This document shows positions 54,008 through 55,960 of a stretch of DNA of 64,000 nt, piece after piece. The notes under the pieces are model-generated. The model was not told where the DNA came from and did not search any database. It saw only the letters and a program-made list of their open reading frames with translations. This stretch comes from Indolivaga macrotermitis (lineage in GTDB: Bacteria > Bacteroidota > Bacteroidia > Bacteroidales > Dysgonomonadaceae): contig NZ_FQUC01000001.1 in assembly GCF_900128985.1 (NCBI RefSeq), forward strand, positions 62,001-126,000, in the 5' to 3' direction. A program made the translations under genes and the position numbers. Within the stretch, counting starts at the first letter, position 1, and each line of letters starts with the position of its first letter.

Positions 54008-55135
54008 ATGGATAACTATATCGTCTCAGCACGTAAATACCGCCCTTCGACTTTTAAGTCGGTGGTGGGACAGCGTTCTTTGACAACTACACTTAAAAAT
54101 GCTATCGCATCAAACAAACTGGCACATGCCTATTTGTTTTGCGGTCCGAGAGGTGTAGGGAAGACTACATGTGCACGAATTTTTGCCAAAACAATCAATT
54201 GTTTATCTCCTGCTGCTGACGGGGAAGCTTGTAACGCCTGCGAGTCATGTGTTGCATTTAATGAGCAGCGCTCGTTCAATATACACGAACTGGATGCAGC
54301 ATCTAATAACTCTGTAGATGATATACGGGCTCTGATAGATCAGGTACGTATTCCTCCTCAGATAGGAAAATACAAGGTATATATTATCGACGAGGTTCAT
54401 ATGTTATCGTCTGCGGCTTTCAACGCATTCCTTAAAACATTGGAGGAACCACCTCATCATGCGATATTTATTTTGGCTACGACAGAAAAGCACAAAATAT
54501 TGCCGACCATATTATCACGTTGTCAGATTTACGATTTTAGCCGTATCAGTATTTCCGATACGGTTGAACATCTGCAGTATGTCGCATCACAAGAAGGTGT
54601 TACAACAGAACCTGAAGCTTTAAACGTATTAGCTCAAAAAGCTGATGGCGGTATGCGTGATGCGCTGTCTATTTTCGATCAGGTTGTTAGTTTTACCGGA
54701 GGTAATGTAACTTATAAGGCTGTAATAGAAAACTTAAATGTGCTCGATTATGAGTACTATTTTAAACTGACAGAGGCAATTCTGGCAAATAATGTCTCGG
54801 ATTCGTTGCTGATACTGAATGATATCCTGAATAAAGGTTTTGACGGGCATAATATTATTTCGGGTATTGCATCTCATTTCCGCGATTTACTTGTATGTCG
54901 CGATCCTCAAACAGCGGTGCTTTTCGAAGTTGGAGCATCTATCAGGGAGCGTTACGTGGCAATGTCGCAAAAATGTAGCAATGAGTTTCTTTATAAAGCC
55001 ATCGAGATAGTTAATGAATGTGATCTGAACTATCGTAACAGTAAGAATAAAAAGCTGTTGATAGAGTTGACCTTGATACGGTTGTGTCAATGTTCAGCTA
55101 ATCCACAATCGTTGGACGAAAAAAAAAAGTCATAA
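54008..55135 (+). CDS. dnaX: DNA polymerase III subunit gamma/tau, N-terminal (gamma-like) part
   Basis: ATPase of the clamp loader that places the sliding clamp on DNA. 375 residues in this frame: AAA+ domain with Walker A GPRGVGKTT (46-54), zinc-binding cysteines (CLSPAADGEACNACESC), DEVHMLS Walker B and LSRCQIYDF sensor region; domain III with FRDLLVCRDPQTA follows. The frame stops at TAA 55133-55135, just after a run of ten A. The -1 frame continues without a stop for another ~200 codons as the tau-like C-terminus. Either a programmed frameshift or transcript slippage makes two products, or one base is missing from the homopolymer in the assembly. Confidence 0.93.
   Translation: MDNYIVSARKYRPSTFKSVVGQRSLTTTLKNAIASNKLAHAYLFCGPRGVGKTTCARIFAKTINCLSPAADGEACNACESCVAFNEQRSFNIHELDAASNNSVDDIRALIDQVRIPPQIGKYKVYIIDEVHMLSSAAFNAFLKTLEEPPHHAIFILATTEKHKILPTILSRCQIYDFSRISISDTVEHLQYVASQEGVTTEPEALNVLAQKADGGMRDALSIFDQVVSFTGGNVTYKAVIENLNVLDYEYYFKLTEAILANNVSDSLLILNDILNKGFDGHNIISGIASHFRDLLVCRDPQTAVLFEVGASIRERYVAMSQKCSNEFLYKAIEIVNECDLNYRNSKNKKLLIELTLIRLCQCSANPQSLDEKKKS
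55119..55129 (+). promoter_or_regulatory. Slippery A10-G site in dnaX
   Basis: Ten A (55119-55128) then G. In the zero frame this is GAA AAA AAA AAG TCA TAA; the heptamer A AAA AAG just before a stop is the same as the E. coli dnaX frameshift site. A -1 shift opens the tau-like frame (GTC ATA ATT GAA). No clear upstream SD stimulator or downstream hairpin was seen, which would favour polymerase slippage on the A run. Confidence 0.55.
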
Positions 55136-55179
55136 TTGAACCTATTTTCTCTAAAACAACAGAGAATCAGGTACAACAA

Positions 55180-55737
55180 GTGGCGAATACAGCCATTTCT
55201 ACAACACCATCACGATCTCAACCCCAATCAACAACAGCCGGTAATAATAGTTCTGAAAAACCTAAACCAACAATAAAGAAACCTTCTATATCCGGTTTGG
55301 GTATATCGATTTCGGCTCTTTCCCAGAAATCAGAGATAGAAGAAAAAACAGTTCAAAAAGTAGTTGAGGAACTCTCCGAAACATTTACTCCTATTCAATT
55401 GCTTAACGAATGGAAAGCGTATGTGGAAACTTTGACCGAGGAACACCATCTGAAGAATACAATGATCAATTGCTTGCCTTCTCTTCTGAATAGGGATACT
55501 TTTGAGGTTGTTGTCAATAATCCAGTACAAGAGCAACGCTTATTGGATAATGCAGTATCTATCTTAACTATCTTACGGAAAAACCTTCGCAATACTCATA
55601 TTCAAATGAAGGTTCGTATTACTGTTGATAATGAGAAAAAGCTTGGATTTACCTCTTTGGAAAAGTTTAATCTGATGATGGAAGAAAACGAAAGCCTTAA
55701 AAAACTGAAGGACGAATTCGGCTTAGAACTTCTGTAA
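55180..55737 (+). CDS. dnaX: DnaX tau-like C-terminal part, in the -1 frame
   Basis: The open frame really runs from 55129, directly after the A run, through VIIEPIFSKTTENQVQQ; 55180 is only the first possible start (GTG) if read separately. A low-complexity linker (STTPSRSQPQSTTAGNNSS, proline and serine rich) is followed by a folded C-terminal domain (~100-185: FTPIQLLNEWKAYVETL, RITVDNEKKLGFTSLEKFN) as in the tau part of Bacteroidetes DnaX, which contacts polymerase and helicase. No separate promoter or ribosome site was seen, so it is expected to be made as a fusion to the upstream gene through frameshift, slippage or a corrected base. Confidence 0.75.
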   Translation: MANTAISTTPSRSQPQSTTAGNNSSEKPKPTIKKPSISGLGISISALSQKSEIEEKTVQKVVEELSETFTPIQLLNEWKAYVETLTEEHHLKNTMINCLPSLLNRDTFEVVVNNPVQEQRLLDNAVSILTILRKNLRNTHIQMKVRITVDNEKKLGFTSLEKFNLMMEENESLKKLKDEFGLELL

Positions 55738-55842: not shown

Positions 55843-55917
55843 GGGCGTTTAGCTCAGCTGGTTCAGAGCATCTGCCTTACAAGCAGAGGGTCGGCGGTTC
55901 GAATCCGTCAACGCCCA
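55843..55917 (+). tRNA. tRNA-Val (anticodon TAC)
   Basis: 75 nt cloverleaf. Acceptor stem GGGCGTT pairs with AACGCCC, discriminator A at 55917; D-arm AGCTCAGCTGGTTCAGAGC; anticodon arm TCTGC-CTTACAA-GCAGA with TAC at 55878-55880; T-arm GGCGGTTCGAATCCGTC. The CCA end is not fully encoded (CCG follows). Confidence 0.97.
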
Positions 55918-55960
55918 CCGAAAGGTGGAAATGTCGAAAGGCAAGCAAAGCCAACAAAAT

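Follow-up and report, generated by a model that had tools for sequence, protein, structure and literature searches.

The dnaX gene of Indolivaga macrotermitis lies in the second half of the window, that is, the whole stretch of 64,000 nucleotides that was analysed, and its reading frame breaks at a stretch of ten A (A10), as the first-pass annotation had stated. The positions of the features are summarized in Table 1. The zero-frame product matches DNA_pol3_delta2, DNAX_ATPase_lid and DNA_pol3_gamma3 of Pfam, and covers positions 1-367 of the 614 positions of the NCBIfam model NF011531 (DnaX gamma/tau). It ends with the residues DEKKKS (codons GAA AAA AAA AAG TCA TAA), and the zero-frame stop is therefore the second codon past A AAA AAG, exactly where it had been placed before. 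The −1 frame, previously described as open for roughly 200 codons with a tau-like content, is open for 202 codons and covers positions 421-613 of NF011531 (E 3e-31); it gives no significant match to Pfam. Both frames other than the tau frame stop within two codons after the run. The three frames at the run, as read from the sequence, would thus represent gamma, a second gamma-like end and tau. A tRNA-Val gene (anticodon TAC) is located directly 3' of dnaX, at positions 55843-55919 of the window.

Table 1. Features of the dnaX locus of I. macrotermitis (positions in the window)
Feature	Position	Strand	Remarks
dnaX zero-frame ORF	54008..55135	+	375 aa; gamma-like protein of the clamp loader with an AAA+ domain, a lid and domain III
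Run of ten A, putative site of slippage by RNA polymerase	55119..55128	+	followed by G55129
Zero-frame heptamer A AAA AAG, candidate ribosomal slip site	55123..55129	+	
TAA, zero-frame stop	55133..55135	+	would end gamma from unslipped mRNA
TGA, +1-frame stop	55137..55139	+	closes the third frame; end of the second gamma-like form
−1-frame ORF	55129..55737	+	202 codons (open to 55734) and TAA; tau linker and C-terminal domain
Candidate hairpin 3' of the A10 run	55129..55188	+	−15.6 kcal/mol, z −5.4 against dinucleotide shuffles

The break in dnaX is common to all six genomes of the genus, I. macrotermitis included, of which five have A10 and one has A11. One of the other genomes is a single contig, and one is only 62% complete. 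The N-terminal part of dnaX of the five congeners is 82-94% identical. The length of dnaX in related genomes had been proposed as a check, and the zero-frame protein is 375 aa long in six of the six genomes; tau lies in the −1 frame for 195-203 residues in each of them. The differences in the −1 ORF are distributed over the three codon positions as 834/464/1549 when all congener pairs are summed, and its dN/dS value is approximately 0.09 to 0.13 for three pairs (0.156/1.79, 0.299/2.22 and 0.102/1.16), for which dS is near saturation; a fourth pair gave no dS. The distribution over the codon positions and the low dN/dS show that the tau ORF is selected as a protein; it is intact in the −1 frame and under purifying selection.

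In the other genera of the family, dnaX is mostly continuous, with approximately 575-725 codons from stop to stop. Among the 24 dnaX genes of these sister genera that were read, 22 carry A10 or A11 at the corresponding position, the two without a run being L124 and L130, and 23 are continuous there, the only split one being L112, which has A11. The commonest sequence at the run in the sister genera is CAA AAA AAA AAG CAG GTA ATT GA, in which TAA and TGA are present in the other two frames. The A run predates the split. The apparently broken dnaX gene of one relative (G039) includes a stretch of N.

The survey of the phylum comprises 306 dnaX loci: 6 from the genus, 48 from the rest of the family, 89 from a phylum draw, 83 from a further class draw and 80 named loci, which are the best 80 of 593 named stretches. 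These loci leave 304 distinct N-termini. When the own genome is counted, dnaX was taken from 54 of the 89 matching genomes of the family draw, from 90 of the 116 of the phylum draw (26 were left out, 16 of them from one family, f16) and from 96 of the 97 of the class draw (one partial gene was left out). The run was searched for in a linker window of 270 nt that spans the end of domain III, an anchor that was extrapolated in 98 of the 306 loci, and this linker window misses at least one A10 located further downstream (L078).

A run of 9-13 A is present just past domain III in 232 of the 304 distinct dnaX genes of Bacteroidota, although these and the following counts of genes are not independent. 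The longest A run per linker window is seven or fewer in 72 genes, eight in none, nine in 46, ten in 168, eleven in 16, twelve in one and thirteen in one. Fourteen runs of eight A are present in the linker windows, and none of them is the longest run of its gene. When only one gene per 75%-identity cluster is counted, the run is found in 89 of 128 genes, and again no gene has eight A as its longest run. Runs of nine or more A are found in every draw, in 6/6 genes of the genus, 40/46 of the family (two duplicates removed), 66/83 of the class, 61/89 of the phylum and 59/80 of the best 80 of the 593 named stretches. The 232 runs occur in all three codon phases (151/52/29), and the base after the run is G in 109, C in 69 and T in 54 of them. 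The peptide encoded at the run is of 23 kinds in 166 continuous genes. Runs of at least nine A are rare elsewhere in these genes: domains I-III contain 1 in 318 kb and the tau part contains 11 in 184 kb, as compared with 234 in the 81 kb of the linker windows, which overlap the tau part.

A/T runs of at least ten number 12 in the genome of I. macrotermitis when counted as distinct runs and 15 when counted as overlapping matches, whereas a first-order Markov model based on the window predicts approximately 102. This scarcity, together with the recurrence of the run at the same place in 232 of 304 dnaX genes, indicates that the run is more than a product of chance. Of these runs, only those of dnaX and coaBC are seen deep within long ORFs on the A strand, and one more is located directly after a start codon (L340).

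Among the 72 dnaX genes that have no A run of eight or more in the linker window are those of Bacteroidaceae and Prevotella MAGs, as well as much of the deeper phylum draw (L033-L037, L041, L043, L047, many of L160-L190 and others). An E. coli-like signal, namely some in-frame X XXY YYZ sequence with a near −1 stop, is present in 13 of 68 run-less genes.

The frames other than the tau frame are closed shortly after the run. Among the 228 genes that have the run and a tau frame of at least 100 codons, both of these frames stop within ten codons in 213 (93%), as compared with 24% in codon shuffles. When one gene per 75%-identity cluster is counted, both stops are present in 79 of 87. In the continuous genes, a stop is present within five codons in the +1 frame in 129 of 165 (24% expected) and in the −1 frame in 158 of 165 (40% expected). 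In a control stretch 120 nt downstream in the same genes, both stops are present within ten codons in 33 of 165 (27% expected). Of two controls in run-less genes, the one at the longest A run gives double stops in 10 of 65 (13% expected), and the one at a fixed place gives double stops in 22 of 65, as compared with 14% expected, an unexplained excess. A stop in the +1 frame would be unneeded for −1 ribosomal frameshifting. Closure of both frames is also found in the Thermus gene (PMC5009743), and is required for heterogeneous slippage.

The frame in which tau is encoded is not constant. Among the 229 run-bearing genes that can be classified, tau occupies the zero frame in 166; in the other 63, the split genes, it lies in the −1 frame (58 genes) or in the +1 frame (five genes). 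The named Flavobacterium loci L095, L096 and L102 are among the split genes. Three further genes (L055, L058 and L222) have the run with too little sequence 3' of it, and are classed neither as split nor as continuous. On one FastTree tree of the N-terminal part, at least 34 switches between the split and continuous states are required, as well as at least 31 changes of the phase of the run and at least 44 changes of its length within 9-13.

It is quite probable, to judge from the sequences compared, that dnaX of I. macrotermitis is decoded via RNA polymerase slippage on the A10 run. Transcription would then yield mRNAs with 10, 11, 12 or more A. The unslipped mRNA with ten A would be translated to gamma of 375 aa, the mRNA with eleven A, in which one A is extra, to tau of 576 aa, and the mRNA with either twelve or nine A to the second gamma-like form of 377 or 376 aa. 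In the genus of I. macrotermitis, gamma would thus be made from the unslipped mRNA. The shift would thus create the longer product, the reverse of the E. coli case, and this earlier statement is correct for the genus. The frame of the DNA would matter little for an mRNA pool that holds all frames, and tau has moved between frames often probably because the pool would hold all of them. Slippage is favoured by the length floor of nine A in the genes surveyed, by the indifference to the phase of the run and to the base that follows it, and by the stop in the third frame. It is also favoured by the small number of such runs in the genome of I. macrotermitis and by the presence of tRNA-Lys(CUU) beside tRNA-Lys(UUU) in this genome; the presence of two Lys tRNAs in Thermus may bear on its use of slippage (PMC5009743). 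Slippage as in Thermus was one of the options raised by the first-pass annotation, and, as a proposed mechanism, is the best supported of them. Eleven A in reads, which had been proposed as a refutation of the split, contradicts it only if the reads are genomic, because an mRNA with eleven A is what slippage predicts.

Several observations point against slippage. Split dnaX genes of Chlorobium have eight and seven A (PMC3711429), and the floor of nine is therefore not absolute there. A run of eight or more A is absent from the linker window in 72 of the 304 genes, and double stops at the fixed place are somewhat in excess in run-less genes as well. Finally, when the peptide is fixed, 33% of synonymous recodings keep at least nine A.

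A programmed −1 shift of the ribosome at A AAA AAG, which would yield tau by frameshifting and leave the run as no more than an extended slippery stretch, is unlikely to be the explanation, but several results agree with it. The heptamer is in the zero frame in the window, as had been noted, and in 31 of the 63 split genes as compared with 44 of the 166 continuous genes. G follows the run in 43 of the 63 split genes, as compared with 109 of all 232 run-bearing genes. A −1 shift also serves the 58 of 63 split genes that have tau in the −1 frame, and E. coli-like stimulators have been mentioned, as unpublished, for the dnaX gene of one Chlorobium (PMC5009743). However, the heptamer is out of the zero frame in 154 of the 229 run-bearing genes and in it in only 75, and the emphasis of the first-pass annotation on the E. 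coli heptamer is not supported as the general mechanism; the conserved feature is instead a homopolymer of at least nine A in any phase, with stops in both other frames. At least nine A are kept though the heptamer needs only seven, near stops are present in the +1 frame as well, tRNA-Lys(CUU) is present, and five split genes require a shift in the opposite direction. The candidate hairpin 3' of the run in the window has a low z-score, and the fold z is below −2 in 14% of the split genes, as compared with 2% in a control stretch; the corresponding values for the continuous genes are 12% and 10%. The mean fold z is −0.54 in the split genes, as compared with −0.13 in the control, and is −0.54 in the continuous genes as well (control −0.21). 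The hairpin has no consensus in the genus: RNAalifold predicts no pair 3' of the run for the six congeners, the single folds of which differ, and a conserved RNA stimulator was rejected on this basis. SD-like motifs are rare: within the 24 nt that precede the run, they are seen in 7 of 63 split genes (control 3 of 63) and in 19 of 166 continuous genes (control 8), and none is found by reading these 24 nt in the window. Weak RNA structure may be present in some dnaX genes, and ribosomes may contribute a part in genes that have the heptamer, that of I. macrotermitis included. Slippage, on the sequences compared, fits dnaX of Bacteroidota better than E. coli-like ribosomal frameshifting does.

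Recoding at both levels, in which slippage is old and general and a ribosomal shift is added where the run ends in AAG, would account for the more frequent G 3' of the run and the more frequent zero-frame A_AAA_AAG in the split genes, and dnaX is known to use either level depending on the species (PMC3711429, PMC5009743). This combination is nevertheless rather improbable, because the counts of G and of the heptamer are not corrected for shared descent, and neither the fold and SD scan nor RNAalifold of the six congeners gives a conserved stimulator. It is scarcely conceivable that two proteins are made, with the C-terminus of tau translated separately by re-initiation or from an internal start. 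GTG at 55180 opens an ORF of 185 aa, but an ATG occurs among the initial 30 tau-frame codons in 3 of 63 split genes as compared with 6 of 165 continuous genes, and either ATG or GTG in 15 of 63 as compared with 33 of 165. Re-initiation in the tau ORF was rejected, because start codons are not clearly enriched in the split genes; moreover, stops in both other frames would serve no need if two proteins were made. Equally remote is an artefact of sequencing or assembly, or a pseudogene. A change of one base in the length of the run would produce a single continuous frame, and of the five split genes with tau in +1, three carry A9, A11 and A11 instead of A10 and could be assembly errors. However, the break of I. 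macrotermitis is present in the five other congeners, the N-terminal parts of which are 82-94% identical, the −1 ORF is under purifying selection, and dnaX is an essential gene. Assembly error, which the first-pass annotation had left as an option, is refuted as the cause of the break by the same break in the five other genomes of the genus.

The C-terminus of tau was modelled over the last 135 residues, with a mean pLDDT of 74.7. A Foldseek search with this model gives no match at E ≤0.001, and a profile search of PDB sequences gives nothing significant (best E 0.029, unrelated). In a second structure comparison, the best match of the model is DnaA domain I (Z 9.6, rmsd 2.5, 79 aligned); DciA matches with Z 8.4 and 8.3, and many other small alpha-beta domains match with Z 6 to 9; these matches are presumably KH-like folds. 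The C-terminal domain of E. coli tau is not among the structure matches listed. The model fits a tau tail that may be replisome-binding.

A further A run is seen in coaBC of I. macrotermitis (G000:C20:614971-616164, minus strand, L345), which is taken to be coaBC from its motifs. An A11 run lies between the CoaC and CoaB domains, and is present in all four genomes of the genus examined, the own genome included. Among the relatives compared (L346-L369), A9-A11 is seen by eye in several family members, and coaBC of one relative (G011, L365) is interrupted there at A10. The class sample consists of 29 loci out of 57 matching genomes; the boundary motif was located in 26 of these loci, and only four of the 26 have a run of nine or more near the motif. 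For this reason coaBC was rejected as a class-wide slippage gene. It is possibly a second, younger slippage gene.

Production of gamma and tau by recoding is classic in E. coli and Thermus, and the role of gamma has long been debated in E. coli. For Bacteroidota, in the broad sense of the draws, it is moderately probable that the run is an old slippage site, the length of which is selected to be 9-13, that the other frames are filled with stops, that the tau frame is nearly neutral and drifts, as the number of switches suggests, and that RNA polymerase, rather than the ribosome, sets the gamma:tau ratio of the replicase across most of the phylum. If most of the phylum slips with the frame free to flip, slippage would be an ancient, stable means of setting the proportion of two subunits. 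Gamma would then have to matter in Bacteroidota, gene finders would truncate dnaX in many genomes, and pairs of relatives with split and continuous genes would be natural experiments on RNA polymerase slippage.

Antonov et al. (2013) have reported, from 1106 genomes, 17 dnaX genes, spread over 12 genera, that require recoding to make tau; nine of the 17 have ten A, and programmed transcriptional realignment was suggested for them (PMC3711429). A review restates these genes as the reversal of the E. coli case (PMC5009743). As in the two-ORF genes of that report, the gamma ORF of I. macrotermitis ends after the poly-A, tau lies in the −1 frame and the run consists of ten A, the genus having A10 five times and A11 once. 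The dnaX gene of I. macrotermitis thus belongs with the two-ORF A10 genes reported in 2013 (PMC3711429), recoding itself being predicted. Unlike the present survey, the passages of that report on dnaX contain no account of the run in continuous genes, of a length floor, of double stops or of repeated switches (PMC3711429). For the phylum-wide run, the length floor and the frame switching, no earlier description was found in the open-licence literature, subscription papers being mostly outside this search.

In E. coli dnaX, tau is encoded in the zero frame, and the slip site is accompanied by an upstream SD-like stimulator, a 3' stem-loop and a single tRNA-Lys (PMC3711429, PMC5009743). The gene of I. 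macrotermitis shares with it A AAA AAG in the zero frame and, as predicted, the two products. It differs in that its zero frame does not encode tau, in that no SD-like element is present upstream of the heptamer, and in that AAG is not left to tRNA-Lys(UUU) alone, since tRNA-Lys(CUU) is found as well. As compared with the 3' stem-loop of E. coli, the hairpin in the window is strong by its z-score and the genus has no consensus for it. The mxiE gene of Shigella and IS genes are expressed by slippage, and slippage is needed for the longer mxiE product (PMC1088944), as is predicted for tau of I. macrotermitis, although the two genes are unrelated.

Thermus thermophilus dnaX is decoded by slippage on nine A, and its zero frame encodes tau (Larsen et al. 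2000; PMC1088944, PMC5009743). The gene of I. macrotermitis resembles it in the presence of at least nine A at the gamma/tau boundary, in the near stops in both frames other than tau (TAA and TGA), in the two Lys tRNAs and, as predicted, in the production of both gamma and tau from one gene. Unlike in Thermus, tau is not one unbroken ORF in the genus of I. macrotermitis; the zero frame encodes gamma, and tau would need slipped mRNA. Thus, dnaX of I. macrotermitis is predicted to work as the Thermus gene does, though its arrangement is not exactly that of Thermus.
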